From Actinomadura mexicana (GTDB lineage Bacteria; Actinomycetota; Actinomycetes; Streptosporangiales; Streptosporangiaceae): a stretch of DNA of 64,000 nt. The stretch covers positions 62,001 to 126,000 of the forward strand of contig NZ_FZNP01000019.1 of assembly GCF_900188105.1 (NCBI RefSeq), written 5' to 3'. The notes under the pieces are model-generated. The model searched no databases and was not told where the DNA came from. It was given only the letters and a program-made list of their open reading frames with translations. Positions 309 through 21,039 of this stretch are shown here, one piece after another. The number at the start of each line of letters is the position of its first letter. Position 1 is the stretch's first letter. Position numbers and translations under genes: made by a program.

Positions 309-1061
309 ATGAGCTACGGAGCGGCGCACGCCGAACTCTACGATCCCGTGTTCCGCAGCCGCGGGAAGGACTTCGAGGCGGAGGCCGAGGGGGTGAACCG
401 TCTGGTCCGGCACAGGTTCCCGGGGGCGCGTTCCCTGCTCGACGTCGCCTGCGGCACCGGCGCCCACCTGGAGAACCTCGCCAAGCACTTCGACCACGTG
501 GAGGGGCTCGACCACTCGCCCGCCATGCGGGACGTCGCGCGCGGGCGGCTGCCCGGCGTCGCCGTGCACCCCGGCGACATGCGCGACTTCGAGCTCCACC
601 GGACCTTCGACGTGGTCATCTGCATGGGCAGCGGGCTCGCCGAGGCGGAGTCGCCCGAGCAGATTGCCGACTCGGTCGCCAGGATGTCGGCGCACGTCGC
701 ACCGGGCGGGGTCCTCGTCGTCGAACCGTGGTACTTCCCCGACAACTTCCTCGACGGACATGCCGCCGGGCACCTGTTCCGGGAGGACGGGCAGGTGGTC
801 TCGCGGATGACGCATTCGGCGAGACACGGGGACAGGAGCCGCGTGGAGATCAGGTTCATGATCGTGGACTCGTCCGGGTTCCGGGAGTTCACCGACGTGA
901 TCGTCAAGTACCTGCTTCCCCGGGAACGCTACGAGGCGGCCTTCGAGCGGGCCGGCTGCACCGTCGAGTTCGTGCCCGGCTTCTCGCTGGCCGACGGCCG
1001 CCCGAACAGCCCCGGGCTCTTCGTCGGCGTCCGCGCCGGCGGCACCGACCGGTCCGGATAG
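309..1061 (+). CDS. SAM-dependent amino-sugar N-methyltransferase (DesVI/TylM1-like)
   Basis: A 250-residue class I methyltransferase. The start YGAAHAELYDPVFRSRGKDF, the SAM motif LLDVACGTGAHLE (about residue 45) and the later GDMRDFEL, VEPWYFP and PGLFVGV segments match, by recall, the family that N,N-dimethylates TDP-3- or 4-aminosugars (DesVI, TylM1). The expected role is methylation of an amino-sugar nucleotide made by the DegT aminotransferase downstream. It starts at ATG 309 after GAAGGACGCCTG. The glycosyltransferase follows after a gap holding another AT-rich element. The family is clear; regiochemistry and one versus two methyl transfers are not. Confidence 0.87.
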   Translation: MSYGAAHAELYDPVFRSRGKDFEAEAEGVNRLVRHRFPGARSLLDVACGTGAHLENLAKHFDHVEGLDHSPAMRDVARGRLPGVAVHPGDMRDFELHRTFDVVICMGSGLAEAESPEQIADSVARMSAHVAPGGVLVVEPWYFPDNFLDGHAAGHLFREDGQVVSRMTHSARHGDRSRVEIRFMIVDSSGFREFTDVIVKYLLPRERYEAAFERAGCTVEFVPGFSLADGRPNSPGLFVGVRAGGTDRSG

Positions 1062-1200: not shown

Positions 1201-2388
1201 GTGGCCTACCGAATCGCCCTTGTCAATGTCGCCAATCACGGCAGCGTCCTCCCCACCCTTCCGGTGGTGTCGGAGCTGGTCCGGCGCGGGCACGACGTCG
1301 GTTACGTGACGTCGCCGGAGTACGCCGGGCTGGTCGAGCGGGCCGGTGCGAAGGCGGTCCCGTACGAGTCGGGGGCCTCCGGCGCGGCCGAGGCGTTCGC
1401 GGACGACGACCCGGCCCGGCCGCACATGCTGTACCTCGCCGAGAACGAGGCGATCCTGCGGGCGGCGCAGGCGCACTACGCCGGGGACGCGCCGGACCTG
1501 GTGCTGTACGGAGAAGTGCCGATCATCGCCGGCCAGGTGCTGGCGGCCGCCTGGAAGCGCCCCGCCTGCCGGATCAACCCGGGCTTCGCCTCCAACCACG
1601 CGTACTCCTACTCGCGGGAGATGATCGAGGAGACCGGCGGCGTCGACGAGCACACGCGGGGCGTCGTCGACGCGAGGCTGGGCGCCCTGTTCGCCGAGTA
1701 CGGCCTGCGGGACCGGGCCGGAGAGTTCGCCGACCGCGTCGAGGACCTCAACCTGGTCCTCATCCCGCGCGAGTTCCAGATCGCGGCGGACACCTTCGAC
1801 GAGAGGTTCGCTTTCGTCGGGCGCTCGGCCGCCCACGAGGGGCGGCCCGGGGCGTGGCGCCCCCCGGAAGACGGCTCGCCGGTGGTGCTGATCTCGCTGG
1901 GGACGACCTTCAACGACCATCCCGACTTCTACCGGCAGTGCGCGGAGGCGTTCGAGGGCGCGCCCTGGCACGTGGTGATGGCCTTGGGGGACCGGGTCGA
2001 AGCGGACGACCTCAGCCCCCTGCCTCCGAACGTCGAGGCGCACCGGTGGGTGTCCCTGCCCGCCGTGCTCGAACACGCGCGCCTGCTCGTCACCCACGGC
2101 GGCATCGGCGCCGTGATGGACGCCCTGATCGCGGGCCGGCCCATGGTCGTCGTGCCGTTCACGTTCGACGTCAAGCCGATGGCCCGGCGGGTGGGCGAGC
2201 TGGGGCTGGGGACGGTGGTCCCCGCGGCGGAGTTCACCGGCGCGCGGCTGCGCGAGGCGGTGGAGGAACTGGCGGGGGACCGGGCCACGCTGGAACGGGT
2301 GCGCCGCATGCGGGAGCACACGGCGCGGGCCGGCGGCGCGGCCCGCGCCGCCGACGTGATCGAAGCCTATCTGGCACGGGGACGTTGA
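1201..2388 (+). CDS. MGT-family glycosyltransferase (GT1, GT-B fold)
   Basis: About 395 residues, the normal size for macrolide-type GT1 transferases of natural-product pathways. The N-terminal VNVANHGSVLPTLPVVSELVRRGH is the acceptor-domain opening; the C-terminal nucleotide-sugar domain has SLGTTFND and the donor-binding LVTHGGIGAVMDALIAGRP motif. It would move a deoxy or amino sugar from an NDP donor to the aglycone or to another sugar. I chose GTG 1201 because it places the fold's first strand at the normal position; an in-frame GTG at 1159 would add 14 residues. Neither start has a strong ribosome site. It is the only glycosyltransferase in the window, so a multi-sugar product would need others to the left. 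Confidence 0.88.
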   Translation: MAYRIALVNVANHGSVLPTLPVVSELVRRGHDVGYVTSPEYAGLVERAGAKAVPYESGASGAAEAFADDDPARPHMLYLAENEAILRAAQAHYAGDAPDLVLYGEVPIIAGQVLAAAWKRPACRINPGFASNHAYSYSREMIEETGGVDEHTRGVVDARLGALFAEYGLRDRAGEFADRVEDLNLVLIPREFQIAADTFDERFAFVGRSAAHEGRPGAWRPPEDGSPVVLISLGTTFNDHPDFYRQCAEAFEGAPWHVVMALGDRVEADDLSPLPPNVEAHRWVSLPAVLEHARLLVTHGGIGAVMDALIAGRPMVVVPFTFDVKPMARRVGELGLGTVVPAAEFTGARLREAVEELAGDRATLERVRRMREHTARAGGAARAADVIEAYLARGR

Positions 2389-2467: not shown

Positions 2468-3607
2468 ATGATTCCGCTGTTCAAGGTCGCGATGGCGCCG
2501 GACGCGCTCGGCCGGATCTCCGAGGTGTTCGACAGCGGCCGGCTGGAGCACGGACCCAAGATGGCGGAGTTCGAGAAGGCCCTGGCGCTGCGCCTCGGCA
2601 ACCCCCGCGTCCTCGCGGTCAACTGCGGCACCTCCGGCCTTCACCTCGCGCTCAGCATGGTGGCCGACCCCGATCGGTTCCCCGCGACGGCCCAGCCCGC
2701 CGGCGGTCCGGGCGAGGTGCTGAGCACGCCGCTGACCTTCGAGGCCACGAACTGGCCGATCCTGGCCCACGGGCTGCGCGTGCGCTGGGTCGACGTCGAT
2801 CCGGCCACGCTGACGATCGACCTCGGCGACCTCGCCGCGAAGATCTCGCCGGCCACCCGCGCGATCGTCGTCGTCCACTGGCTGGGCTATCCGGTGGACC
2901 TCGACCGGCTGCGCGAGATCGTCGACCGGGCCGAGCAGGCCCACGGATTCCGTCCCGTGGTGATCGAGGACTGCGCGCAGGCGTGGGGCGCGACCTACCG
3001 GGGGGCGCCGCTCGGCAACCACGGGAACGTCTGCGTGTACAGCTTCGGCGCCATCAAGATCCTCACCTGCGGAAGCGGCGGGCTGATCGTGCTTCCCGAC
3101 GAGGACCTGCACCGGCGGGCCCGGCTGCGCCGCTGGCTCGGCATCGAGCGGCAGGCCGACCGGGTGCACGGCGACTACGACGTCGCCGAATGGGGCTACC
3201 GCTTCCCGATGAACGACATCTCCGCCGCGATAGGGCTGTCCAACCTGGAGATCGTCGACGGCCTGCTCGCCCGGACGCGGAGCAATGCCGCCTTCTACGA
3301 CAAGGAGCTGTCGGGGATCGCGGGCGTCGAGCACACCGAGCGGGCCGACGACCGGGAGCCCTCGTTCTGGGCGTACCCGCTGAAGGTGGCGGACCGCACG
3401 TCCTTCATGCGGAAGATGGCCGATGCCGGGATCATGACGAGCATGATCTCGCGGCGCAACGACGCCCACAGCTGCGTCGCCGCGGCGCGGGAGGAGCTGC
3501 CGGGCCTGGACGGCGTGCACGACCGCGTGGTCTACGTGCCCGTCGGCTGGTGGCTGTCGGAGGAGGAGCGCGGCCACATCGCGGACACGATCAGGTCGGG
3601 CTGGTGA
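2468..3607 (+). CDS. DegT/DnrJ/EryC1-family PLP sugar aminotransferase
   Basis: A 379-residue fold-type I aminotransferase. The SFGAIKILTCGSGG segment gives the PLP-binding lysine (about K197); NCGTSGLHLAL is the phosphate-binding start and VIEDCAQAWGATYRG the conserved aspartate region. The family transaminates keto-sugar nucleotides, usually with glutamate. It starts at ATG 2468 after AGGGAG. With the DesVI-like methyltransferase it makes an N-methylated amino sugar the likely output; the keto substrate could come from the RmlB product or from an oxidised and decarboxylated UDP-uronic acid. It converges on the MoaD-like gene. Members acting on cyclitols exist, so a sugar substrate is likely rather than certain. 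Confidence 0.87.
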   Translation: MIPLFKVAMAPDALGRISEVFDSGRLEHGPKMAEFEKALALRLGNPRVLAVNCGTSGLHLALSMVADPDRFPATAQPAGGPGEVLSTPLTFEATNWPILAHGLRVRWVDVDPATLTIDLGDLAAKISPATRAIVVVHWLGYPVDLDRLREIVDRAEQAHGFRPVVIEDCAQAWGATYRGAPLGNHGNVCVYSFGAIKILTCGSGGLIVLPDEDLHRRARLRRWLGIERQADRVHGDYDVAEWGYRFPMNDISAAIGLSNLEIVDGLLARTRSNAAFYDKELSGIAGVEHTERADDREPSFWAYPLKVADRTSFMRKMADAGIMTSMISRRNDAHSCVAAAREELPGLDGVHDRVVYVPVGWWLSEEERGHIADTIRSGW

Positions 3608-3640: not shown

Positions 3641-3916
3641 CTAGCCTCCCGCCAGCGGCGGGATGATCTCGACGCGGCTGCCGGGCGTGAGCGCGACGTC
3701 GCCCGGCGGCGTCGTGTTGGGCACCTGCTCGCCGTCGACGAGGAACAGGTGGTAGGGCAGCAGCTCGCCGGCGGGGGAGTAGAGCCGGTAGCCGGCCTCC
3801 GGGTGCGAGCGCACGAACGTCTCCAGGAGCTCGCGCAGGTCGGCCGCGGGCAGCTCCGAGCGCACCTTGCCGGAGGTCACGTTGTGCCAGCTGCCGGGGA
3901 CGATGAGGTGGGGCAT
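3641..3916 (-). CDS. MoaD/ThiS-like sulfur-carrier protein with C-terminal Gly-Gly
   Basis: A 91-residue protein from ATG 3916, ending VEIIPPLAGG. The terminal Gly-Gly directly before the stop and the preceding hydrophobic turn are the mark of beta-grasp carriers (MoaD, ThiS, CysO, QbsE) that are adenylated and then carry sulfur as a C-terminal thiocarboxylate. Because Gly-Gly is already terminal, no trimming protease is needed. No E1-like activator (MoeZ/ThiF type) is in the window, so a housekeeping one would have to serve. It lies 10 bases after the FGE-fold gene in the same direction, after GTGAGGAT. A longer in-frame start exists but overlaps that gene. It probably delivers sulfur to a product or sugar; its partner enzyme is unknown. 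Confidence 0.82.
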   Translation of the reverse strand: MPHLIVPGSWHNVTSGKVRSELPAADLRELLETFVRSHPEAGYRLYSPAGELLPYHLFLVDGEQVPNTTPPGDVALTPGSRVEIIPPLAGG

Positions 3917-3926
3917 GGGGGCATCC

Positions 3927-4835
3927 TCACGGGTCGCGGACGCATCGGAAACCACTGGCGAAGCAGGCCCAGCCGGTGGGGTCGCCGTGCAGGCGCTCAC
4001 TGGTCCGGGCCTGGAAACGCAGGTTCATCCAGGAGCCGCCGCGGATGACGCGGAAGCGGTCCATCACGGTCAGCAGCGACTCGTCGCAGTCGGGCGACGG
4101 GCCGTAGAGCCGGCTCGGCGAGGCCGTCCACTCGTAGACGTTGCCGGCCATGTCCGACACCCCGTACGGGCTGTCGCCGTGCGGGCTGAAGCTTCCGACC
4201 GGGGTGGTCAGCGGGATCGGGCCCTGGCCGCCCTGGACCTCCTTCCACCACGCGCGCCACTCGGTGGCGCTGCGGGTGGTGTCGCCCAGCCGTAGCTCGG
4301 TGGTGTTGGTCAGCTCGCGCGACCATTCGTCGCCCCACGGCCACAGCCGGTACTCGGGGCCGCGCGCGGCAAGCTCCCACTCCGCCTCCGTCGGAAGCCG
4401 GCCGCCCGCCCACGCGGCGAAGGCCTCGGCGTCCTCGACGGCGATGTGGACGGCGGGGTGGTCGTCCGGCGGCGCGTAGCCGGTGTCCTGCCCGGCCGGA
4501 CGGCGCCAGGACGCGCCGGGCGTCCCCTGCCAGTAGTCGGCGCCGTAGACCAGGCTCCAGCCGCGGCGTTCGGCGACCGTCCGGTACCCGGTGGCCTCCA
4601 CGAAGGCCGCGTACCGGCCGGAGGTGACCGGGTAGCGGTCGATCACGAACGGCGCGACCTCCACGAGCGTCTGCGGGGTCTCGTCGCGGAACCAGGGCGT
4701 GGGGAAGGGCTGGTCCTGTTCCGCCAGCCAGTCGAGCACCCACTCCGGCGATCCGAGCCGGAATGCCGCTCCTTCGATGAGGACCGATTCCGCGGCCTCC
4801 ACGCCGCCGCGCGTCGCCGTCTCGTGGTCTGCCAC
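3927..4835 (-). CDS. FGE/SUMF1-fold protein lacking the FGE cysteine pair
   Basis: A 302-residue single-domain FGE-sulfatase fold: PFVIDRYPVT, GRLPTEAEWELAARG, YRLWPWGDEW, YGVSDMAGNVYEWT and RVIRGGSWMN are the standard blocks in order. In true formylglycine-generating enzymes the region after GGSW carries two copper-binding cysteines; here it reads MNLRFQARTSE, with cysteines only later in GWACFASGFRC. The N-terminal DinB domain that supplies iron ligands in EgtB/OvoA sulfoxide synthases is absent too. It should therefore not be called an FGE or EgtB. It starts at GTG 4835 after GGGATGG and is co-directional with the carrier gene 10 bases downstream, which suggests a joint role. Actual chemistry is unknown. 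Confidence 0.8.
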   Translation of the reverse strand: MADHETATRGGVEAAESVLIEGAAFRLGSPEWVLDWLAEQDQPFPTPWFRDETPQTLVEVAPFVIDRYPVTSGRYAAFVEATGYRTVAERRGWSLVYGADYWQGTPGASWRRPAGQDTGYAPPDDHPAVHIAVEDAEAFAAWAGGRLPTEAEWELAARGPEYRLWPWGDEWSRELTNTTELRLGDTTRSATEWRAWWKEVQGGQGPIPLTTPVGSFSPHGDSPYGVSDMAGNVYEWTASPSRLYGPSPDCDESLLTVMDRFRVIRGGSWMNLRFQARTSERLHGDPTGWACFASGFRCVRDP

Positions 4836-4871
4836 AGCGCCATCCCGTAGACGATGGTTCTCATCGAGCAG

Positions 4872-4895
4872 AAACTATATAAAGATATAGCATTC
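4872..4895. promoter_or_regulatory. AT-rich cluster element (site d)
   Basis: This lies between the end of the sugar dehydrogenase (4917) and the start of the FGE-fold gene (4835), so it is placed as the promoter region of the FGE-fold/carrier pair. It contains AACTATATAAAG and ATATAGC; on the minus strand TGCTATAT is shared with site f. The exact 10-base spaced dyad is not present. Confidence 0.4.
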
Positions 4896-4916
4896 GAAGG
4901 TCGCCCGCGCCATGGC

Positions 4917-6269
4917 TCACCGCCCGATCCCGCGGTAGCCGAAGCCGAGGTCGCGCAGCCGCCGGATGGTCTCCGCCCGGTAGTGCATGCGCCCATCGAA
5001 GATCAGGCACGGCATCGCGACCAGCCGCCGCAGCCGTTCCAGGTCGATCTGGCGGAACTGCCGGTGCCCGGCGAGGAAGGCGACGGAGTCGGCGCCCCGC
5101 ACCGCCTGATCGAGGTCGGCGGCGGGGGAGCCGCCCACCTCCGACCGGATCCGCTCCTTCTCGGCGAGGGGGTCGAAGACCCGTACCTCCGCGCCGGCCG
5201 CCTGGAGGGCCCGGACGACCCCCTTCACGGGGGTGTTGCGCAGGTCGCCGGTGTCGTTCTTGAAGGCGGCGCCGAGAACGGCGATCCGCGCCGACGCCAG
5301 GTCCTTGCCCATCTTGGCGAGGCCGTCCCTGATGACCTCGTAGGCGTATTCGGGCATGGCGTCGTTGACGTGCCGCGCCGTCTCCACCGTCCGCAGCCGG
5401 ACGCCGCGGTCGCGGGCGGTACGCCAGGTCATCCACGGGTCCTTGGTCAGGCAGGGTCCGCCGACGCCCGCGCCGGGCCGCAGGATGTTGACCCGCCCGT
5501 CCCCCTTCGGCAGCGAGTTCGCCGCGGCGATCACTTCCATCACGTCGACCTCGAACAGCGCGCAGAACCGGGCCAGCTCGTTGGCCATCGCGACGTTCGC
5601 GTCGATCCACCAGTTGTTGGCCAGCTTGACGATCTCGGCGATGTCGGCCGTGGGCACGATCCGGACGGGCACGCCCAGCGCCGCCTTCCAGAACCGGGCC
5701 GCCGCCGCCGTGCTGCCGGGGCCGCACCCGCCGACGATGACCGTCAGCTCGCGCACCTGGGCCAGCGCGTCCCCCTCGGCCAGCCGCTCCGGGCAGTAGG
5801 CGAGGCCGAAGTCCCGGCCCTCGGCCAGGCCGCTGCTCTCCAGCAGTGGAACGACCAGCGTGCGCGTGGTCCCCGGGGCGACGGTGCTCTTCAGGATGAC
5901 CAGCTGGCCGGCGCGCAGCCGCAGTGCGAGCTGCCGGCACACCTCCTCCAGCTGCGCGGTCAGCAGCGCGCCGTTCCCGTCGACGGGCGTACCGACCGTG
6001 ATGAGCACGACGTCGGCGTCCCGCAGGGCGTCGTAGTCGGTGGTGCACGCCAGCCGCGCGCTCGCGACCAGCGGAGCCAGCGCCTCGGCCAGGCCGGGCT
6101 CGGGGATCGCGCAGCGGCCGGCCCGCAGTTCGGCGATCATCGGTGCGTCGCTGTCGATGCCGACGACGCTCATACCGCGCTCGGCCAGGGCGACCCCGAG
6201 GCACGAGCCGATGTAGCCGAAGCCCAGGATCGCGATCCGCGGGTGGGGAGAATCTGACAAGAATTCCAT
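4917..6269 (-). CDS. Nucleotide-sugar 6-dehydrogenase (UDP-glucose/UDP-HexNAc type)
   Basis: 450 residues with the three domains of the UDP-glucose/GDP-mannose dehydrogenase family: NAD-binding ILGFGYIGSCLGVALAERG at the N-terminus, the catalytic-lysine helix EIVKLANNWWIDANVAMANE, and the catalytic cysteine in GVGGPCLTKDP (about C273), followed by the C-terminal UDP-binding domain. It makes an NDP-uronic acid with two NAD+. UDP-glucose is the simplest substrate; the GGPCL.KDP wording also occurs in UDP-HexNAc dehydrogenases. It starts at ATG 6269 after AGGAAGG. In related clusters such an enzyme opens an aminopentose route through UDP-xylose, but no decarboxylase is seen here. Divergent from the sulfur operon. 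Confidence 0.87.
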   Translation of the reverse strand: MEFLSDSPHPRIAILGFGYIGSCLGVALAERGMSVVGIDSDAPMIAELRAGRCAIPEPGLAEALAPLVASARLACTTDYDALRDADVVLITVGTPVDGNGALLTAQLEEVCRQLALRLRAGQLVILKSTVAPGTTRTLVVPLLESSGLAEGRDFGLAYCPERLAEGDALAQVRELTVIVGGCGPGSTAAAARFWKAALGVPVRIVPTADIAEIVKLANNWWIDANVAMANELARFCALFEVDVMEVIAAANSLPKGDGRVNILRPGAGVGGPCLTKDPWMTWRTARDRGVRLRTVETARHVNDAMPEYAYEVIRDGLAKMGKDLASARIAVLGAAFKNDTGDLRNTPVKGVVRALQAAGAEVRVFDPLAEKERIRSEVGGSPAADLDQAVRGADSVAFLAGHRQFRQIDLERLRRLVAMPCLIFDGRMHYRAETIRRLRDLGFGYRGIGR

Positions 6270-6366
6270 GGTCGCCTTCCTCGTCGTTCTCCGCGCCTTC
6301 CGCGGTGGCCGGGTCGGGCGTGCGCGCGGCCCCTGGACGCCGCCGATCGGCTCCGGCGCCGCCGAG

Positions 6367-6397
6367 CATAGTTACAATATATTACTAAAGTGATTAT
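6367..6397. promoter_or_regulatory. AT-rich cluster element (site e)
   Basis: Upstream of the sugar dehydrogenase in the divergent gap. AGTTAC at 6370-6375 and TAAAGT at 6386-6391 are separated by exactly 10 bases, as at 227-248, with an AT-only centre. It lies about 100 bases before ATG 6269 on the minus strand. This is one of the two best matches to the shared element. Confidence 0.5.
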
Positions 6398-6489
6398 GTC
6401 CCCGACTGGCCTGCGAGGCCGCCGGTCCGCAGCGGCGACCGCTGCCCGTCCTGGGGATCTTCTGGACATGGTCATTGGAGTCGTCCGAT

Positions 6490-6513
6490 CACTTGCTATA
6501 TGATAGTTAAGTG
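6490..6513. promoter_or_regulatory. AT-rich cluster element (site f), imperfect inverted repeat
   Basis: The stretch is flanked by CACTT and AAGTG, with CTAT and ATAG inside, forming an imperfect inverted repeat. Read as ACTTGC (6491-6496), 10 bases, TTAAGT (6507-6512), it fits the A-S-TT-R-C, N10, T-W-AAGT pattern of sites a and e. It ends 35 bases before the start codon of the sulfur operon at 6548. Confidence 0.5.
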
Positions 6514-6547
6514 AGTGACCTCGCGCTCGTGACCTCCGGAACGGGAG

Positions 6548-7345
6548 ATGGTGACCGAGGAACGCCCTGCCGGCGTCGACCTGTCCTCGCTGGCACAGCG
6601 CCATGCCGACCAGTGGGCCCCCGCGGGCGGGCACGGCCCCTCGATCGCCCGGCTGGCCCGTACCGCGGTCCGGCTGGACGAGGACTACTGCCGGGCCGTG
6701 GCGGCGCACTACGACCGCGCGCCCCTACGCGGCGACGGCGCGGGGCTGCGCCGGCGCTACGACCGGTTGAAGCGCCAGAACCTCCGGCAGTTCCGGTCGA
6801 TCGTCGAGGCCGGCATCGAGATCGCCCCGTGGCTCGGAGAGGGGCAGCCGTACGAGGGATCGCGGCACCTGCGCGAGAGCGTGCACCGGACCGGGCGGCT
6901 CCACGTCTACCTGACCAGCTCGGGCCACGGGCCGTCGCCGGCCGCCGGGGACCATCCGCTGTCCGGGCCGTCGGGCGTCGTGGTCGACGGTGTGGAGTTC
7001 TGCCACAACGACCTGTTCCGGGCCGTGCACGACATCTTCGGGCACGTGATGCTCGGCAACGGGTTCGGCCCCAAGGGAGAGTTCCTCGCGGCCTTCTGCC
7101 ACATGCACACGTACTCCCGGGACGTGCATCCGATCCTGTTCACCGAGCAGATCGGCCAGATCTGCTGGTTCTTCTACGGCCCGCACCTCCTGGACGGCGC
7201 GGGCGGGCTGCCGGGACCCGGCGACCCCGGCTACCTGGCGCCGGCCCGCCGCCCGTACCCGGAGCAGAAGGTCTTCGAGTTCCCGGTGCGATTCCTCGAC
7301 GCGTTCACGAGCCTGTTCCAGCCCGAGAGGAGTCCGGATGACTGA
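6548..7345 (+). CDS. Putative metalloenzyme with aromatic-amino-acid-hydroxylase-like HxxxxH...E site
   Basis: 265 residues, not assigned to a named family with confidence. The centre reads NDLFRAVHDIFGHVMLG and, 34 residues later, LFTEQIGQICWFFYG. That spacing and the hydrophobic context resemble the HELLGH...E iron site of pterin-dependent aromatic amino acid hydroxylases, giving candidate ligands H161, H166 and E200 (a 2-His-1-carboxylate triad). The pterin-binding parts are not recognisable. It is the first gene of an operon running to 12695 and overlaps the cysteine desulfurase by 8 bases, so it likely acts in the same sulfur or sugar chemistry. The start is ATG 6548 or GTG 6551, just after GGGAG. 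An oxygenase role is inferred. Confidence 0.6.
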   Translation: MVTEERPAGVDLSSLAQRHADQWAPAGGHGPSIARLARTAVRLDEDYCRAVAAHYDRAPLRGDGAGLRRRYDRLKRQNLRQFRSIVEAGIEIAPWLGEGQPYEGSRHLRESVHRTGRLHVYLTSSGHGPSPAAGDHPLSGPSGVVVDGVEFCHNDLFRAVHDIFGHVMLGNGFGPKGEFLAAFCHMHTYSRDVHPILFTEQIGQICWFFYGPHLLDGAGGLPGPGDPGYLAPARRPYPEQKVFEFPVRFLDAFTSLFQPERSPDD

Positions 7346-8645
7346 CGTGATGCCGCAAGGAGGGGGATCTCCGGTACGGCTCGCGGACCAGGCGTTCCTT
7401 CCCAGATCCATCAGGGACGACTTCCCGATCCTGGCGACCGCGCAAGGCGGCGAGCCGCTCGTCTACCTCGACAACGCCGCGACGGCGCAGAAGCCGCGGG
7501 CGGTCCTCGACGCGCTCGTCGACTACTACTCGACGGCGAACAGCAACGTGGGCCGCGGATACTACCGGCTGAGCATGGCCTCCACCGACCGCTACGAGGA
7601 GGCGCGCGAGACCGTGCGGCAGGCGCTCGGCGCCGAGCACGCCGACGAGATCGTGTTCACCCGGGGCACGACGGACGCGGTGAACCTGATCGCGGACGGC
7701 CTGGGCGCCCGGCTGGTCGGCAGGGGGGACCAGGTCGTCGTCACCGGCATGGAGCACAACTCCAACCTGCTGCCGTGGCGGCGGCTCTGCGAGCGGGCGG
7801 GAGCGGAGCTGGTGGTCGCCCCCGTCGACGAGCGGGGCGCCGTCGACGCCGCGGCCTTCGCCGCCGTCCTCGGCCCCCGCGTCCGGATCGCCGCCGTCGC
7901 CCACGTGTCCAACGTGCTGGGCACCGTCAACCCGGTGCGCGAGATGATCGCCGAGGCGCACCGGCGCGGTGTCCCGGTCGTCGTGGACGGCGCCCAGGCG
8001 GTGCCGCACGCGCCGGTGGACGTGCGCGGACTCGACGCCGACCTCTACTGCTTCTCCGGGCACAAGGCCTACGGCCCGATGGGCACCGGGGTGCTGTACG
8101 GCAGGCGCGACCTGCTCGCGGAGCTGCCGCCGTACCAGGTCGGCGGCGGAACGGTGAAGGGGGTGAGCCACACCGAGCCCGTCCGCTACGTTCCCGTACC
8201 CGCCCGGTTCGAGGCGGGCACCCCGAACGTGGCGGGGGCCGTGGGCCTGGCCGCCGCGCTGCGGTACGTCCGCGATCTCGGCTGGGACGCCGTGCGGCGG
8301 CATGACGAGGCGCTGGTGCGGCACGCGGTCGAGTCGCTTCGGCGGATCCGCGGCGTGCGGGTCGTCGGCGACCCCGCCGCCGCGCCCAGCGGGATCGTGT
8401 CCTTCGTCGTCGACGGCATCCACCCCTACGACGTCGGCGGGCATCTGGACCGCCACGGCGTGGCCGTGCGCAGCGGCGTGCACTGCGCCAGCACCTTCCT
8501 GGACGAGATGGGCCTGCTCGGGACCGTGCGGATGTCGTTCGCGGTCTACAACACCGCCGACGAGATCGACGTCCTGGCCGACGCCCTGCGCTCGGTGCGG
8601 CCGGGGTCGTGGACCACCGACCACCCGACCACGCGGTTCCTGTGA
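7338..8645 (+). CDS. SufS-type cysteine desulfurase
   Basis: 435 residues of group II cysteine desulfurase. LVYLDNAATAQKP opens the fold, CFSGHKAYGPMGTGVL holds the PLP lysine (about K243), and VRSGVHCASTF holds the persulfide-forming cysteine (about C383) where SufS has RTGHHCA. The enzyme takes sulfur from cysteine as a persulfide and releases alanine. It overlaps the preceding gene by 8 bases and precedes the next PLP enzyme by one base, so expression is coupled. No SufE/U or SufBCD genes are nearby, which argues for a pathway-specific sulfur donor, possibly to the MoaD-like carrier, rather than Fe-S assembly. A selenocysteine lyase activity cannot be excluded. Confidence 0.9.
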   Translation: MTDVMPQGGGSPVRLADQAFLPRSIRDDFPILATAQGGEPLVYLDNAATAQKPRAVLDALVDYYSTANSNVGRGYYRLSMASTDRYEEARETVRQALGAEHADEIVFTRGTTDAVNLIADGLGARLVGRGDQVVVTGMEHNSNLLPWRRLCERAGAELVVAPVDERGAVDAAAFAAVLGPRVRIAAVAHVSNVLGTVNPVREMIAEAHRRGVPVVVDGAQAVPHAPVDVRGLDADLYCFSGHKAYGPMGTGVLYGRRDLLAELPPYQVGGGTVKGVSHTEPVRYVPVPARFEAGTPNVAGAVGLAAALRYVRDLGWDAVRRHDEALVRHAVESLRRIRGVRVVGDPAAAPSGIVSFVVDGIHPYDVGGHLDRHGVAVRSGVHCASTFLDEMGLLGTVRMSFAVYNTADEIDVLADALRSVRPGSWTTDHPTTRFL

Positions 8646-8646
8646 C

Positions 8647-9765
8647 ATGCGCTTCGACACGAGGCTGGTCCACCTCGGCCAGGAACCCGACGGCGTCACC
8701 GGAGACGTGGTGCCGCCCGTCCATGTCGCGGCGACGTTCGAGCGGCGGGTCCAGGATCCGTTGCGCTACTTCTACTCGCGCGGCGAGAACCCGACGCGCG
8801 AGGCCCTCGAACGCTGCCTGGCGGGGCTGGAGGACGCGCGCTTCGCCCTCGCCTTCGGCTCCGGACAGGCGGCGGGGACGACGGCGCTGTCCCTGCTCCG
8901 CGCCGGCCGCAGGCTGATCGCCTCGGACGACGTGTACGGCGGCACCCGGTCGCTGTTCGCGCTCCTCGGCCGGTACGGCGTCACCGTGGACCACGTCGAC
9001 CTCACCGACCCGCCCGCGCTCGACGCCGCGCTCGGCGACGACGTGGACATGGTCTGGGTGGAGGCGCCGACCAACCCGCTGCTGAAGGTCGCCGACCTCT
9101 CGGTGGTGTGCGAGCGGGCCCGGCGGATCGGCGCCCGCGTCGTGGTGGACAACACCCTCGCCGGTCCGGCGCTGCAGCAGCCGCTGCGGTTCGGCGCCGA
9201 CATCACCCTGTACAGCACCACCAAGTCGATCGCCGGCCACTCCGACGTCATCGGCGGCGCCCTGGTCTACGACGACGAGGAACTGCACCGCGAGCTGTCG
9301 TCCCACCGCACCACCACGGGGAGCGTGCCCGGCGGCTTCGACTGCTTCCTGGTGCATCGCGGGCTGAAGACGCTCTCGTTGCGCGCGGCCCGGCAGGTCG
9401 GCAACGCGGAGGCGATCGCCGCCGCGCTGCGCGGGTGCGAGCGGGTGGGCGCCGTCCACTATCCGGGGCTGCCCGAGCACCCGCAGCACGAGGTGGCGGC
9501 CCGGCAGATGTCGGCGCCCGGGTCGATCCTGAGCTTCGAGTACCTCGGCGATCCGGAGAAGCTCCTGGACCGGGTGCGGCTGTACGCGTGCGCGGTCAGC
9601 CTCGGCGGCGTGCGCTCGCTCATCGAGTGCCCCGCCATGATGACCCACGCCTCCGTCCCCCGCGAGATCCGGGGGCCGCTGGGCATCTCGGACAACCTCA
9701 TTCGGGTGTCGGCGGGCATCGAGGACCCGGCCGACCTGGTGCGGGACCTGATGGACGCGCTCTGA
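8647..9765 (+). CDS. Cystathionine gamma-lyase/synthase-family PLP enzyme
   Basis: 372 residues of the Cys/Met-metabolism PLP family. TRLVHLGQEPDGVTGDVVPPVHVAATF is the usual start, EAPTNPLLKVADL and VVVDNTLAGP hold the cofactor aspartate region, and YSTTKSIAGHSDVIGG the PLP lysine (about K193). Members do gamma-elimination or gamma-replacement at cystathionine, homoserine esters or methionine. Here it is one base after a cysteine desulfurase and 17 before a homocysteine S-methyltransferase, so it may make or break a C-S bond on a pathway intermediate or feed cysteine/H2S. Sequence alone does not separate lyase from synthase or methionine gamma-lyase. The start is ATG 8647. Confidence 0.87.
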   Translation: MRFDTRLVHLGQEPDGVTGDVVPPVHVAATFERRVQDPLRYFYSRGENPTREALERCLAGLEDARFALAFGSGQAAGTTALSLLRAGRRLIASDDVYGGTRSLFALLGRYGVTVDHVDLTDPPALDAALGDDVDMVWVEAPTNPLLKVADLSVVCERARRIGARVVVDNTLAGPALQQPLRFGADITLYSTTKSIAGHSDVIGGALVYDDEELHRELSSHRTTTGSVPGGFDCFLVHRGLKTLSLRAARQVGNAEAIAAALRGCERVGAVHYPGLPEHPQHEVAARQMSAPGSILSFEYLGDPEKLLDRVRLYACAVSLGGVRSLIECPAMMTHASVPREIRGPLGISDNLIRVSAGIEDPADLVRDLMDAL

Positions 9766-9782
9766 ACTGCGGAGGGATGGAC

Positions 9783-10739
9783 ATGATGAACGACCTGTCT
9801 GGGGGCCGTCGGTCCGGAAGCGGCGGACCCGTGCGGCTGGACGGCGGGACCGCGACCGAACTGCAGCGCGCCGGTATGAGCGTCGACGGGCCGTGGTGGA
9901 CCGTCCGGGCCATGAACTCCGAGGCCGACCGCACGCGGTTGCGGGGGATCCACCAGGGCTACCTGGGCGCCGGAGCGCAGGTGATCACCGCCAACACCTT
10001 CCGGTGCAACCTGCGGGCGCTCAGCCGCCTCGGCCTCTTCGACGCCGGCCTCGCGTGGATGGTGCACGCCGCCGTCGGCGTGGCCCAGGCCGCGGTGCGC
10101 GCCGGCGAGGAAGGGCGGGCGGTCGGCCGGGAGGACGCGGACCGCGCGCGGATCGCGGGCTCCGTGGGTCCCGTCGAGGACTGCTACCGGCCCGACCTGG
10201 TTCCCCCCGACGACGAACTGCGGGCCGAGCACCGCTGGCTGGCGACGGAGCTGGTGCGGGTGGGCGTGGACCTCGTCCTGATCGAGACGATGAACTCCGA
10301 GCGCGAGGCGCGCATCGCGCTGGAGGAGGCGCGGCGGGCGGGCGCCCGCGCCTGGGTCGGCTTCGTGTGCGACGCCGACGCCCGGCTGCTGTCGGGGGAG
10401 AAGCTGGCCGACGCGGCCGGCGCCGTCGAACGGGACGGCGCCGAGGCCGTGCTCGTCAACTGCACCGCTCCGGCCGACACCGAGACGGCGCTGCGGGCGC
10501 TGCGGGACGCCTGCTCGGGCCCGATCGGCGCCTACCCCAACATCGAGGACCGCGACGGCATCCCCCGTTCGGCGCACGTCGACCGGCACGTCCCCGCCGC
10601 GCTGGGGCCCGACGAGTTCGCCGATCTGATCGCCCGCTGGGACGCGGAGTTCTCCCTGGACGTGGTCGGCGGCTGCTGCGGCACGACACCGGACCATCTG
10701 GCCGCGGCCCACGACCGGCTGCTCCGGAGCGGGCGATGA
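9783..10739 (+). CDS. Homocysteine S-methyltransferase (MmuM-like)
   Basis: 318 residues of the zinc-dependent family that methylates homocysteine or related thiols, usually with S-methylmethionine or SAM. RLDGGTATELQRAG is the standard start; the zinc thiolates are visible as VLVNCTAP (about C227) and VVGGCCGTTPDH (about C298, C299). I chose ATG 9783 because GGAGG stands 7 bases before it; ATG 9777 lies too close to that site. In this operon the enzyme may recycle methionine for the several methyltransferases, or methylate a pathway thiol such as a thiosugar; the second idea is speculative. No cobalamin-dependent MetH features are present. Confidence 0.88.
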   Translation: MMNDLSGGRRSGSGGPVRLDGGTATELQRAGMSVDGPWWTVRAMNSEADRTRLRGIHQGYLGAGAQVITANTFRCNLRALSRLGLFDAGLAWMVHAAVGVAQAAVRAGEEGRAVGREDADRARIAGSVGPVEDCYRPDLVPPDDELRAEHRWLATELVRVGVDLVLIETMNSEREARIALEEARRAGARAWVGFVCDADARLLSGEKLADAAGAVERDGAEAVLVNCTAPADTETALRALRDACSGPIGAYPNIEDRDGIPRSAHVDRHVPAALGPDEFADLIARWDAEFSLDVVGGCCGTTPDHLAAAHDRLLRSGR

Positions 10740-10776
10740 GGGTCCGCGGCGCCCCTCGCCGAGCGCGGACCGGCTC

Positions 10777-11775
10777 ATGAGGATCCTGGTGACCGGCGGC
10801 GCCGGATTCGTCGGGTCCCACTACGTGCGCCGGCTCCTCGGCCCGGGGCGGACCGGCGGCGGCGAGCACCAGGTCACCGTGCTGGACAAGCTCACCTACG
10901 CCGGCAACCCGGCCAACCTCGCCCCGGTGCGCCGCGCGCCGGGCTTCGCCTTCGTCCACGGGGACGTCGCGGACGCCGCGGTGGTCGACGATCTCGTCGC
11001 CGGCCACGACGCGATCGTCCACTTCGCCGCGGAGTCCCACGTCGACCGGTCGATCCGGTGCGCGCAGGACTTCGTCGTCACCAACGTCCTCGGCACCCAG
11101 ACCCTGCTGGAGGCGGCGCGGCGCCACGGCACCGCCCCCTTCGTGCACGTGTCGACCGACGAGGTGTACGGGCCGATCGGGACGGGGCGGTGGAGCGAGC
11201 GGGACCCGCTGGCGCCCGGCAACCCGTACGCGGCGTCCAAGGCCGCGGCCGACCTCATCGTGCTCGCCTGCCACCGGACCTTCGGGATGGACGTCCGGAT
11301 CACCCGGGGCTCCAACACCTACGGCCCGTACCAGTTCCCCGAGAAGATCGTCCCGCTGTTCGTCACCGAGCTGCTCGACGGGGGGAAGGTGCCGCTGTAC
11401 GGCGACGGGCTGCACGTCCGCGAGTGGCTCCACGTCGACGACCACTGCCGCGCCGTGCACCTGGCGCTGACCAGGGGCCGGGCGGGCGAGGTCTACAACA
11501 TCGGCGGCGTTCCGCTGACCAACCGCGAGCTGACCGGCCGGCTGCTCGCCCAGTGCGGCGCGGGCTGGGACGCGGTGTCGTACGTGCAGGACCGCAAGGG
11601 GCACGACCGCCGGTACGCGATGGACTGCTCGAAGATCGCGACGGAGCTCGGGTTCCGGCCGTGCCGGGACCTCATGGCCGGCCTCGCGGAGACCGTCGAC
11701 TGGTACCGGGACAACCGCGAGTGGTGGGAGCCGCTCACCATGCACGTACCGCGGGACGTGGAGGTGAACTCGTGA
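10777..11775 (+). CDS. dTDP-glucose 4,6-dehydratase (RmlB-like)
   Basis: 332 residues of the extended SDR dehydratases. VTGGAGFVGSHYVRRLL is the NAD site, VHVSTDEVYGPI carries the catalytic Asp-Glu pair, and NPYAASKAA gives the YxxxK pair (about Y151, K155). It converts an NDP-hexose to the 4-keto-6-deoxy sugar, the common entry to deoxysugars. No RmlA-type nucleotidyltransferase is in the window. It starts at ATG 10777, 37 bases after the methyltransferase, and its stop overlaps the next start by 4 bases. Together with the aminotransferase and N-methyltransferase it supports an amino-deoxyhexose. Confidence 0.92.
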   Translation: MRILVTGGAGFVGSHYVRRLLGPGRTGGGEHQVTVLDKLTYAGNPANLAPVRRAPGFAFVHGDVADAAVVDDLVAGHDAIVHFAAESHVDRSIRCAQDFVVTNVLGTQTLLEAARRHGTAPFVHVSTDEVYGPIGTGRWSERDPLAPGNPYAASKAAADLIVLACHRTFGMDVRITRGSNTYGPYQFPEKIVPLFVTELLDGGKVPLYGDGLHVREWLHVDDHCRAVHLALTRGRAGEVYNIGGVPLTNRELTGRLLAQCGAGWDAVSYVQDRKGHDRRYAMDCSKIATELGFRPCRDLMAGLAETVDWYRDNREWWEPLTMHVPRDVEVNS

Positions 11776-12695
11776 CGGCCGCGGACATCGACCCGGCCGA
11801 CGTCAAGCAGGGGCAGCGGGCCTCCTGGGACGCCCTCAGCTCGAACTGGGAGGCGGCGCAGGAGCGGTTCGAGCTGGGAGCGGCCGCGGTGACGGAGCGG
11901 CTGCTCGACCTCGGCGGCGTGCGGGCGGGCCACGCGGTCCTCGACGTCGGGACCGGGCACGGTGAGCCCGCCCTCACGGCGGCCCGGCGGGTGGGGCCCA
12001 CCGGGCGGGTGACCGGAGTGGACATCTCCCCGTCGATGCTCCACCTGGCCCGGCGCCGGGCCGAGGGCACGCCCAACATCGAGTTCGCCGAGGCGGACGT
12101 GGAGTCCATCGACCTGCCGGCGGCCTCGTTCGACGTCGTGGTCAGCCGCTGGGGGCTGATGTTCGCGGTGGACCGCGTCGCCGCCTTCCGCGGTCTCGCC
12201 CGGCTCCTGGTCCCCGGGGGCGTGCTCGCCGCGGCGGTCTGGAGCGAGGCGCCCGGCGCACCGGCGATCTCGCTGGGCTTCCGGGTGCTGAGCGAGCGGC
12301 TCGAACTGCCGCCTCCGCCGCCGGGCATGCCGGGCCCGTTCAGCATGGCCGACCCGCAGCGGCTCGCCGCCGAGGTGGCCGCGGCGGGGTTCACGGACGT
12401 GGCGGTGACCGAGTTCGTCGCGCGGTTCCCGTTCGACTCCGTCGAGCAGTGCGTCGCCTTCACCAAGGCCGTGACGCCGCCGATGCTGCTGCAGAAGCTC
12501 GCGGAGCGCTTCGGGTCCGCGGACGACCCCGGCACGTGGCGAGCCTTCGCCGACGCAACCGAGCCCTACCGTTCCGGCGGTGGGGCGTTCACGCTGCCGT
12601 CGACGGCGCTGATCATCCGGGCCGTCGCCCCCGCCCGGGACCGTGCTCGAACGTCGACATCACCAGCCACTCGTCCAGTTCGGGGTCGTAGATGA
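11772..12695 (+). CDS. Class I SAM methyltransferase (UbiE-like)
   Basis: 307 residues from GTG 11772, which overlaps the dehydratase stop as GTGA. VLDVGTGHGEPALTAARRVGPTGRVTGVDIS is the SAM-binding motif and AEADVESIDLPAASFDVVVSRWGLMF the following acidic and motif II region. It is the last gene of the operon that begins at 6548. The family includes C-, O- and S-methyltransferases; a role in S-methylating a thiosugar or O-methylating sugar or core is possible but not shown. The C-terminal tail after ALIIRAVAPA is arginine-rich and may be read-through into non-conserved sequence. Confidence 0.85.
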   Translation: MTAADIDPADVKQGQRASWDALSSNWEAAQERFELGAAAVTERLLDLGGVRAGHAVLDVGTGHGEPALTAARRVGPTGRVTGVDISPSMLHLARRRAEGTPNIEFAEADVESIDLPAASFDVVVSRWGLMFAVDRVAAFRGLARLLVPGGVLAAAVWSEAPGAPAISLGFRVLSERLELPPPPPGMPGPFSMADPQRLAAEVAAAGFTDVAVTEFVARFPFDSVEQCVAFTKAVTPPMLLQKLAERFGSADDPGTWRAFADATEPYRSGGGAFTLPSTALIIRAVAPARDRARTSTSPATRPVRGRR

Positions 12696-18968: not shown

Positions 18969-19847
18969 TCAGATCTGCGAGCGCGGGTCGGTCAGGTCGC
19001 GGAAGGCGTCGCCCACGAGGCCGACGCCGGTGACGACGGCGGCCAGCGCGATCGCCGGCATGGTGGAGATCCACCAGGCCGAGCCGAGGTAGTCGCGGCC
19101 CGCCGAGACGGTCGCGCCCCAGGACGCCTGGTCCGGCGGGATTCCGAGGCCGAGGAAGCTCAGCGACGCCTCCGCCACCATGACCAGGCCGATCTGCACG
19201 GTCGCCGCGACCAGCAGCGGCTGCCAGCACGACGGCAGCACGTGCCGGAACAGGATCCGCGCGTGCCCCGCGCCGAGCACCCGCGCCGAGTCGACGAACT
19301 CCAGGTCCCGGGTCGCCAGCGCGGACGCCCGCACCACCCGGGCGAAGATCACCCAGCGGGTCACCGCCAGCGTGATGACGATGTTGGTGACGCTCGGGCC
19401 GAGGACGCCCGCGATGAGGATGGCGAGCAGGATCGACGGGAACGCCAGCTGCACGTCCCCGAACCGGGACAGCACGCCGTCGGTCCAGCCGCCGAAGTAG
19501 CCGGACACGAGCCCCGCCACCAGGCCCACGGCGCCGCCGATGAGCACGGTGGCGGCGCCGACCAGCAGCGACACGCGGCTTCCCGCCAGCAGCGCGGTCA
19601 GCATGTCGCGCCCGACCTGGTCGGTGCCGAGCCACGCGACCGACCCGTCCCCGAGCCGGGACCCCGGCGCCAGCAGCCGGTGCGGCAGGTCGGTCGCGGC
19701 CGGGTCGTAGGGCATCAGCATCGGCCCGAACACGGCCGCCAGCACGAACAGCCCGACGATCCCGAGGCCCGCCCACGCCCGCGCGGGCAGCCTCCTGCGC
19801 CGCCGGGCCGCGGGGACCGTGACCACGGCGGGAGCGATGGCACTCAT
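18969..19847 (-). CDS. ABC transporter permease (DppC-like)
   Basis: 292 residues with an N-terminal arginine-rich tail, one early membrane helix (LGIVGLFVLAAVFGP) and the BPD_transp_1 domain with about five more; the coupling-loop motif is EFVDSARVLGAGHARILFRHVLP. The start is ATG 19847 with AAGGAGG 5 bases upstream. The frame stays open upstream through the whole tandem repeat, but the strong ribosome site argues against a repeat-encoded N-terminus. The stop of the repeat ORF overlaps this start as ATGA, so the gene is translationally coupled to the repeat. Confidence 0.92.
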   Translation of the reverse strand: MSAIAPAVVTVPAARRRRRLPARAWAGLGIVGLFVLAAVFGPMLMPYDPAATDLPHRLLAPGSRLGDGSVAWLGTDQVGRDMLTALLAGSRVSLLVGAATVLIGGAVGLVAGLVSGYFGGWTDGVLSRFGDVQLAFPSILLAILIAGVLGPSVTNIVITLAVTRWVIFARVVRASALATRDLEFVDSARVLGAGHARILFRHVLPSCWQPLLVAATVQIGLVMVAEASLSFLGLGIPPDQASWGATVSAGRDYLGSAWWISTMPAIALAAVVTGVGLVGDAFRDLTDPRSQI

Positions 19848-20116
19848 GCTTCCTCCTTGTGGGGGACGATCCCCCACGCCCCCTGGTTCGCTGCGCTCAT
19901 GCGTTTTCCCAGTGGGGGGGCGACCCCCCACACCCCCTGGTTCGCTGCGCTCATGCGTTCTCCCAGTGGGGGGGCGACCCCCCACACCCCCTGGTTCGCT
20001 GCGCTCATGCGTTTTCCCAGTGGGGGGGCGACCCCCCACACCCCCCGGTTCGCTGCGCTCATGCGTTCTCCCAGTGGGGGGGCGACCCCCCACACCCCCC
20101 GGTTCGCTGCGCTCAT
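19844..20116 (-). CDS. 90-codon ORF made of 18-residue repeats between dppB-like and dppC-like genes
   Basis: The ORF starts at ATG 20116, whose ATGA overlaps the stop of the upstream permease, and ends at 19844, overlapping the next permease start as ATGA. It reads as five near-identical 18-residue units beginning MSAAN(R/Q)GVWGVAPPLG(E/K)R, then ends WGIVPHKEEA. A Shine-Dalgarno GGAG stands before the first ATG and GGGAGAACGC or GGGAAAACGC before each internal ATG. The frame is kept because the repeat is 54 bases long. It may be a translated linker that keeps ribosomes moving between the permeases, or a passive result of repeat expansion at an ATGA junction. No known domain is seen. Confidence 0.4.
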   Translation of the reverse strand: MSAANRGVWGVAPPLGERMSAANRGVWGVAPPLGKRMSAANQGVWGVAPPLGERMSAANQGVWGVAPPLGKRMSAANQGAWGIVPHKEEA

Positions 20117-20118
20117 GC
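19863..20118. repeat. Five-copy 54-bp tandem repeat with hairpin in each unit
   Basis: The word GGTTCGCTGCGCTCATGCG recurs at 19885, 19939, 19993, 20047 and 20101, an exact 54-bp period. Each unit holds an inverted repeat (GTGGGGGG and CCCCCCAC around a 4-base loop). In the unit nearest the DppC-like gene the closing pair is changed on both arms (GTGGGGGA and TCCCCCAC), so pairing is kept. The array fills the gap between two permease genes of one operon. Units differ at a few positions, such as TTTTCCC versus TTCTCCC in alternate copies. Confidence 0.9.
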
Positions 20119-21039
20119 GTTCTCCGGAGTCAGTCTCGGGTCGAGGGCGACGCACAGGACGTCCACGAGCAGGTTCAACGCGATGTAGGAGACCGTGATC
20201 GTGACGATCGCGGCCTCGACGACGGCGTAGTCGCGGTTGGTGATCGCGTCCACCATCAGCGAGCCGATGCCCGGCCAGGAGAACACGACCTCGATGATCA
20301 CAGCGTTGGCGATGAAGTTGCCCATCAGCAGCCCGAGGACGGTGACGACCGGCAGCGCGATGTTGCGGGCGACGTGCACGTACATCACGGCTCCCTCGCC
20401 GGTCCCCTTCGCGCGGGCGGTGCGGACGTAGTCCTTGCCGCTCTCCTCCAGCGCGCCGTTGCGGACGAGCCGGGCCAGCCAGCCGACGAACGGCAGCGCC
20501 AGCGTGACCGAGGGCAGGATCACCGCCTCCGGGCCGCCGCCCGCCGTGCTCGGCAGCCAGTTCAGCTGCCGGGCGAACAGCAGGATCAGCACGATGCCGA
20601 GCCAGAACGAGGGCACCGCCTGCCCGACCAGCGAGCCCGTGGAGACCAGCAGGTCGAGGATCTTGCCGGGCCGCCGCGCGCACAGCATGCCGAGCGGGTA
20701 GCCGACGGCGAGGGTGATGACCAGCGCCAGCGCGGCCAGCGTCAGGGTGGCGGGGAACCGGTCGAGGACGGCGCCCATCGCGCCGCCGCCGAGCCGCCAC
20801 GAGTCGCCGAAGTCGCCGCGCAGGATCTCGCCCATGTGCGCGATGTACTGCCGCCAGAGCGGCTCGTCGAGTCCGAAGTCGGCGCGGACGGAGGCGAGCT
20901 GCGCGGGGCCGGCGTCCGGCCCGAGGATCAGCGTCGCGGGGTCGCCGGGGACGACGCGCACCACGAGGAACACGACCGTGATCGCGCCCCAGGCCACGAC
21001 GAGGGCCTGACCGGCGCGCCTCAGCAGGAACCGTCCCAT
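20113..21039 (-). CDS. ABC transporter permease (DppB-like)
   Basis: 308 residues: MGRFLLRRAGQALVVAWGAITVVFLVVRVVPGDPA is the classic first helix of DppB-type permeases, followed by the TM_PBP1 N-terminal domain and five further helices with the coupling motif LEESGKDYVRTARAKGTGE. The start ATG 21039 overlaps the LacI-family stop by one base. The C-terminus LDPRLTPENA ends inside the last copy of the tandem repeat, and its TGA is formed by the repeat's ATGA. Confidence 0.92.
   Translation of the reverse strand: MGRFLLRRAGQALVVAWGAITVVFLVVRVVPGDPATLILGPDAGPAQLASVRADFGLDEPLWRQYIAHMGEILRGDFGDSWRLGGGAMGAVLDRFPATLTLAALALVITLAVGYPLGMLCARRPGKILDLLVSTGSLVGQAVPSFWLGIVLILLFARQLNWLPSTAGGGPEAVILPSVTLALPFVGWLARLVRNGALEESGKDYVRTARAKGTGEGAVMYVHVARNIALPVVTVLGLLMGNFIANAVIIEVVFSWPGIGSLMVDAITNRDYAVVEAAIVTITVSYIALNLLVDVLCVALDPRLTPENA

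Follow-up and report, generated by a model that had tools for sequence, protein, structure and literature searches.

In the calicheamicin system, the origin of the trisulfide trigger and of the thiosugar was called unknown in a 2016 article, which listed calE4, calS4 and calE6 as sulfur candidates, described the installation enzymes as unknown and reported a measured methionine gamma-lyase activity for CalE6 (PMC4851618). Esperamicin is produced by an Actinomadura, A. verrucosospora (PMC10951976). For the 2-thiosugar of BE-7585A, a route has been described in which BexX acts with sulfur-carrier proteins from primary metabolism (PMC4784017), and in leinamycin/guangnanmycin biosynthesis lyase (SH) domains make a hydropersulfide that is then S-methylated (GnmP), such hydropersulfide methylation being able to give S-methylated di- and trisulfides (PMC8479088). 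Here, we analysed a 64,000-nucleotide stretch of Actinomadura mexicana, referred to as the window, which comprises positions 62001-126000 of contig C34 and starts 62 kb into this 152-kb contig of an 8.79-Mb draft genome; its left flank was analysed as well, and genes were called with a home-made codon-usage script. Because EspG2, CalS13, CalG3, CalE6 and CalU17 are the best solved matches of the encoded proteins, the window almost certainly holds the right part of a gene cluster for a DNA-cutting enediyne antibiotic of the esperamicin/calicheamicin type, a likeness judged from best matches among solved proteins. Two modules can be distinguished among its sulfur genes: module A (6548-12695), consisting of a first protein, a SufS, a CalE6-like lyase, a homocysteine S-methyltransferase-like protein (HcyMT) and a methyltransferase, and module B (3641-4835), consisting of a MoaD-like sulfur carrier and a CalU17-type protein. 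From gene content and distribution we infer, with somewhat better than even confidence, that module A supplies the core methyl trisulfide and that module B is a sulfur-carrier pair that gives the thiosugar. This type of cluster is already known; what is new is the two-module split, the constant MoaD/CalU17 pair and the stand-alone occurrence of module A.

Two sulfur modules and their distributions

Module A lies on the forward strand and begins with a conserved protein of no assigned family (6548-7345; no Pfam or NCBIfam match), whose predicted fold has kin in phage proteins. It is followed by a SufS-family cysteine desulfurase (7338-8645; TIGR01979, 492 bits, over the cut-off), in which the pyridoxal phosphate (PLP) lysine and cysteine motifs of the family are both present (SGHK at 240 and RSGVHC at 378), a CalE6-like PLP lyase (8647-9765; PF01053, 391 bits; CalE6 493 bits, next match 324), the HcyMT-like protein, with its VNC and GGCCG motifs kept (9783-10739; PF02574, 185 bits), and an S-adenosylmethionine (SAM) methyltransferase (11772-12695; PF13649); a dTDP-glucose 4,6-dehydratase-like gene (10777-11775; PF16363/PF01370) is embedded in the operon. 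On the reverse strand, module B encodes a ThiS/MoaD-like sulfur carrier with a C-terminal Gly-Gly (3641-3916; IIPPLAGG; PF02597, 26.8 bits) and a relative of CalU17 with the fold of the formylglycine-generating enzyme (FGE) (3927-4835; PF03781, 193.8 bits, residues 14-300 of 302; CalU17 354 bits, next match 114); proteins 91-94% identical to the latter carry the labels Actinomadura luteofluorescens, Actinomadura sp. and Spirillospora sp. The five sulfur-related proteins named in the initial annotation (SufS, lyase, HcyMT, carrier and FGE-fold protein) are all present, and it had missed the first gene, the dehydratase-like gene and the methyltransferase of the operon. Of the gaps that it gave, -8, 1, 37 and -4 bases are confirmed exactly; for the third, the HcyMT start decides between 11 and 17 bases, and the stated 17 corresponds to the ATG at 9783, which suits the GGAGG upstream. 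It had also stated that no Fe-S assembly or molybdopterin genes accompany the set, and the Pfam scan of 57 called genes (contig 6.1 to 74.7 kb) agrees, as it found no such family besides SufS and the ThiS-like carrier themselves. Among these 57 genes, neither SufBCD/SufU neighbours of SufS nor a ThiF activating E1 enzyme was found; one ThiF match over the cut-off lies elsewhere in the genome (C50:291817).

Module A was tracked across genomes through its first gene. A scan of one genome per species (84,980 species) found 91 loci with a relative, of which 80 were retained, and the genomes of the first 50 loci, in which the first gene is present by construction, were taken as a 50-genome set. Relatives of the NQR2/RnfD-family membrane protein of the cluster, which we take to be UnbU, are carried by 44 of the 50, and a query with the C-terminal part of the enediyne polyketide synthase (PKS) matched the same 44. 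As a pure enediyne marker UnbU was rejected, since it matches the broad NQR2/RnfD family and occurs in 134 of 345 genomes of the order; because of this breadth, the PKS query was used for the main count. All 15 genomes of the order sample that have the first gene are among these 134 (p 4e-7 under independence, uncorrected for kinship), nine of the 15 being also members of the 50-genome set with the same coordinates. In 31 of the 44 enediyne genomes, a single contig carries both the first gene and the PKS, separated by 2.1-56.2 kb (median 7.5 kb); in the other 13, the two are on different draft contigs.

These 31 clusters, with up to about 80 kb around each, were queried with the genes of the window cluster at a looser threshold of 28% identity and 55% coverage and a stricter one of 40% identity; close kin are among them, such as six clusters from Nocardia and four of Micromonospora kind, and a number of the contigs end early. 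Relatives of at least 40% identity were found for the CalE6-like lyase in 31 clusters, for SufS in 30, the methyltransferase in 29, a class V PLP enzyme encoded left of the window in 28, the HcyMT-like protein in 25 and the CalU17-type protein in 12. Within 10 kb of the first gene, most of the loci L021-L070 have SufS, methyltransferase, CalE6-like and HcyMT-like neighbours, some only a partial set, and in L071-L100 none of the four was found. In 16 of the 31 clusters, no relative of the 2,3-dehydratase or glycosyltransferases of the window cluster was found, although one of the 16 (G022) has a 4,6-dehydratase-like match. Therefore, module A is independent of the sugar genes in its distribution, and most likely it would make the core methyl trisulfide and not a sugar. 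Among the matches listed from openly licensed PMC papers, none described module A as a unit.

Module B follows a different pattern. An open reading frame (ORF) ending in Gly-Gly adjoins 18 of 18 CalU17-type genes, one of them weakly (L116, where the contig differs from the markers of its genome and the carrier-like ORF lies upstream and divergent), and three natural fusions of CalU17-type protein and carrier (P0161, P0168 and P0203) retain the C-terminal PPLAGG. The MoaD-like carrier and the CalU17-type protein are a constant pair, sometimes fused. The pair occurs in 12 of the 31 clusters, and all 12 carry relatives of both the 2,3-dehydratase and the glycosyltransferases (11 of 12 at 40% identity, the exception being G001). 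Among the 19 clusters lacking a CalU17-type gene, both sugar relatives were found in two (G003 and G027), a weak glycosyltransferase match in one (G030) and neither in 16, which gives a Fisher p of 6e-7 for the co-occurrence (12/12 vs 2/19). Carrier-only matches in six clusters without a CalU17-type gene (E up to 1; 24.6-26.9 bits) were not counted. The sugar link drawn by the initial annotation is supported only for the MoaD and FGE-fold pair, which tracks the sugar genes, and not for the SufS/lyase/HcyMT operon; module B likely serves thiosugar formation, with one counter-example, a second enediyne-type cluster of Actinomadura oligospora (L254-L257).

That annotation had assigned all sulfur genes to one thiosugar set, in which SufS would load the MoaD-like carrier and the lyase and methyltransferases would make a methylthio group of the sugar. 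The two modules and the sugar genes are indeed neighbours in the window, the dehydratase gene at 10777-11775 lies within the module A operon, and esperamicin has a methylthio sugar. However, the first gene occurs in the 16 clusters without sugar-gene relatives, six genomes without any enediyne PKS match contain the whole set, and in the second cluster of A. oligospora module B occurs with only a SufS-like gene of module A (44% identity to 7338-8645), the first gene not being found there. A single thiosugar pathway is consequently an unlikely explanation.

Several points weigh against the assignment of module A to the core trisulfide and of module B to the thiosugar. Two clusters (G003 and G027) have deoxysugar genes but no module B. 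The second cluster of A. oligospora, which also has a further PKS-like frame, combines module B with genes for a UDP-pentose and has no deoxyhexose set of the window kind; it resembles the published description of maduropeptin, whose sugar is given there as a sulfur-free aminopentose (PMC10951976). Module B was rejected as a strict marker of a thiohexose on account of this cluster. The HcyMT-like gene and the methyltransferase were not found at 40% identity or above in six and two of the 31 clusters, respectively, although absence of the HcyMT-like gene from some clusters fits methionine supply. In six of the 50 genomes, module A is present without an enediyne PKS having been found, and what it makes by itself is therefore not necessarily part of an enediyne. 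Moreover, genes can escape notice because the contigs are drafts, because at most 80 kb was searched and because the queries were the cluster's own genes, and kinship among the genomes makes the p-values too small.

Two candidate functions for the FGE-fold protein of module B were tried and rejected. It does not qualify as a formylglycine-generating enzyme, as the active-site cysteine pair (C336/C341 in the human enzyme) is missing from the residues that follow GGS in an alignment with one FGE chain (5nxl); cysteines are found only at 250, 291 and 298, and C298 is the sole invariant one among 41 relatives. An EgtB/OvoA sulfoxide synthase was likewise dropped: these enzymes carry an extra N-terminal iron-binding domain, only PF03781 was found here, and the EgtB model scored 92 bits against a cut-off of 360. 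No literature on CalU17 was found among openly licensed PMC papers.

Stand-alone copies and the first protein of module A

The six genomes that carry the first gene without a UnbU or PKS match are those of Streptomyces xanthophaeus, Streptomyces sp. MMG1121, Micromonospora tarensis, two Paraburkholderia and a gammaproteobacterial metagenome-assembled genome. In each of these genomes, relatives of all five module A genes lie no more than 10 kb from the first gene, and in every case these are accompanied by genes for an S-adenosylhomocysteine hydrolase and a major facilitator superfamily (MFS) transporter, giving loci of seven genes; in the three actinobacterial loci the hydrolase and transporter genes are divergent from the other five. 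Among 299 Burkholderiaceae genomes, the stand-alone first gene was found in two, both already in the set. In a tree of 59 first proteins (L065, with too long a frame, and L070, a fragment, were left out), a branch with support 99/97 (midpoint root) sets apart the 43 enediyne-linked copies, the six stand-alone copies lie outside this group, and the ten distant relatives included form a third group (support 100/99). With the enediyne-linked copies forming one group and the stand-alone copies falling outside it, enediyne clusters likely captured an existing module A pathway once.

The constant hydrolase could also be read as a sign that module A supports the methyl cycle, recycling homocysteine and SAM for many methylations, with the core sulfur coming from other genes such as that of the class V PLP enzyme (C34 57790-59127). 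The relatives of this enzyme in 28 of the 31 clusters would suit such a division of labour, yet near the stand-alone copies, within about 10 kb, none was found beyond a weak SufS cross-match. However, a pure methyl cycle would not obviously need a cysteine desulfurase or a lyase that releases sulfur, and the stand-alone copies have a transporter of their own, which makes methyl-cycle support improbable. The linked transporter would fit a small reactive sulfur product, and hence also self-protection, in which persulfides or thiols from the sulfur genes quench or trap the activated enediyne; but the first gene is present in only 15 of the 134 UnbU-bearing genomes of the order sample, most such clusters managing without it, and we regard self-protection as very improbable. 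As a tentative extension of the trisulfide reading, which we hold to be possible but doubtful, module A may be a self-standing seven-gene pathway by which scattered Streptomyces, Micromonospora and Paraburkholderia make and export a small methyl-polysulfide or persulfide, and which enediyne clusters captured once for their trisulfide trigger, its first enzyme being a catalytic domain of unsolved fold common to phage polyvalent proteins.

For the first protein (6548-7345), 51 relatives were aligned and a structural model was predicted (AlphaFold2, predicted local distance difference test score 92). No PDB structure matched in Foldseek at E <= 0.001 (best 7.8) and no PDB sequence in a profile search; a VIA structural comparison gave no match among only 25 chains compared, so that this last absence is weak. 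Among viral models, 21 fold matches were obtained at E <= 0.001 (E down to 1.6e-18, template modeling score up to 0.80), mostly within large proteins of uncultured phages, some of them labelled polyvalent. Nine of 25 relatives whose frames were followed, three of the 25 being proteobacterial stand-alone copies, lie in frames of more than 2000 residues. Polyvalent proteins have been reported to contain 40 unassigned domains, at least seven of which are thought to be enzymatic (PMC5512222). Thirteen residues are invariant among the 74-76 sequences aligned per site, including N154, D155, R158, H161, D162, H166, E178, E200 and K241, a set that looks catalytic or metal-binding. The HDIFGH motif is similar to that of aromatic amino acid hydroxylases, and a first comparison gave a probability of 7% and an E of 0.0048; this reading was dropped when a deeper profile against four hydroxylases scored 17.6, a value that falls among those of 60 shuffled decoys (best 21.7), and no Biopterin_H family match was found by Pfam.

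The surrounding enediyne cluster

The initial annotation had named thiosugar-bearing enediynes as one candidate and proposed extending the sequence to the left, and the left flank bears out the enediyne guess. At C34 20271-30180, 31.8-41.7 kb left of the window, are enediyne warhead genes for a DUF1702 protein (presumably of UnbL type), an FG-GAP/UnbV protein, the NQR2/RnfD-family membrane protein, a PKS of 1887 residues with KS, AT, KR and DH domains, and a thioesterase. The latter matched the solved thioesterases 5vpj and 9ccr best (316-319 bits), followed by DynE7 (148) and CalE7 (128), and it reaches 90% of its self score against 5vpj. Sugar and tailoring genes flank the PKS on its two sides; between them they encode one nucleotidyltransferase, a 3,5-epimerase, a 2,3-dehydratase, another 4,6-dehydratase-like protein and an aldo-keto reductase, as well as glycosyltransferases, P450s and O-methyltransferases, plus a radical SAM enzyme. 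In PMC5181780, the presence of R3 and the absence of E2 serve as markers of ten-membered enediynes.

Four glycosyltransferase-like genes were found in the cluster. One at 1201-2388 (forward strand) is closest among solved proteins to EspG2 (5du2), against which it scores 790.9 bits, or 90% of its self score of 875.5, and next to CalG2 (431.9); another at C34 53534-54658, left of the window, best matches CalG3 (515 bits). We assume that the EspG2 of 5du2 is the esperamicin protein; in openly licensed PMC papers, the name retrieved an unrelated E. coli protein, with no esperamicin or trisulfide terms among the matches listed. An aminotransferase gene (2468-3607, forward strand; PF01041) has as its best solved match the sugar aminotransferase CalS13 (4zas; 631.8 bits against a self score of 871.4), a UDP-glucose dehydrogenase-like enzyme of a putative aminopentose route is encoded at 4917-6269 (reverse strand; TIGR03026, 361 bits), and a SAM methyltransferase for sugar or other tailoring at 309-1061 (forward strand; PF13649). 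Aminopentose and multiple glycosyltransferase genes of the Cal/Esp kind are thus present, and relatives of CalE6, CalU17, CalS13, CalG2 and CalG3 all occur here, four of these Cal proteins being the best solved match and CalG2 the second after EspG2. The calicheamicin system has a second PKS for its orsellinate part; here, in contrast, a genome-wide search found one ketosynthase match on the contig, so that no second PKS of this kind is seen on it.

Several further features were observed. The radical SAM enzyme (C34 13094-14596) has a B12-binding match just under the cut-off, with relatives 76% and 74% identical in clusters G045 and G032. Two adjacent TldD/PmbA-type genes (C34 35130-38126) have relatives in 13 and 12 of the 31 clusters. 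Two solute-binding-protein genes (PF00496; C34 56033-57793 and 59509-61155) have no transporter genes called beside either; matches to them occur in 30 of the 31 clusters, where both queries can match one same gene, and these proteins perhaps bind the product. Between two permease-like genes of the window lies a 54-base tandem repeat (19843-20125; 5.3 copies, 94% matches).

Proposed sulfur chemistry and its implications

The measured activity of CalE6 and the precedent of hydropersulfide methylation led us to propose, for module A, a trisulfide formed from cysteine sulfur via SufS and a methylthio group from methionine. SufS would convert the sulfur of cysteine to a persulfide, the CalE6-like lyase would release methanethiol from methionine, the HcyMT-like protein and SAM methyltransferases would supply or place the methyl group, and the first protein may carry out one further step of trisulfide formation; the class V PLP enzyme is a candidate for sulfur transfer to the core. 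Unlike the leinamycin/guangnanmycin lyases, which are PKS domains, the module A proteins are separate enzymes.

For module B, the MoaD-like protein would be charged as a C-terminal thiocarboxylate by an E1 enzyme of the host; a nucleotide sugar would then receive its sulfur, the CalU17-type protein acting as the constant partner of the carrier, to give the thiosugar. Sulfur donation to a sugar by a carrier protein would be shared with the BE-7585A route; the two differ in that the carrier is encoded in the cluster here and paired with a CalU17-type protein, whereas the carriers of BE-7585A come from the host.

Two sulfur modules with different distributions call for two separate deletion experiments, by which the question of enediyne sulfur becomes testable. 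The stand-alone loci, a seven-gene system with no enediyne genes nearby, are suited to working out the chemistry of module A.

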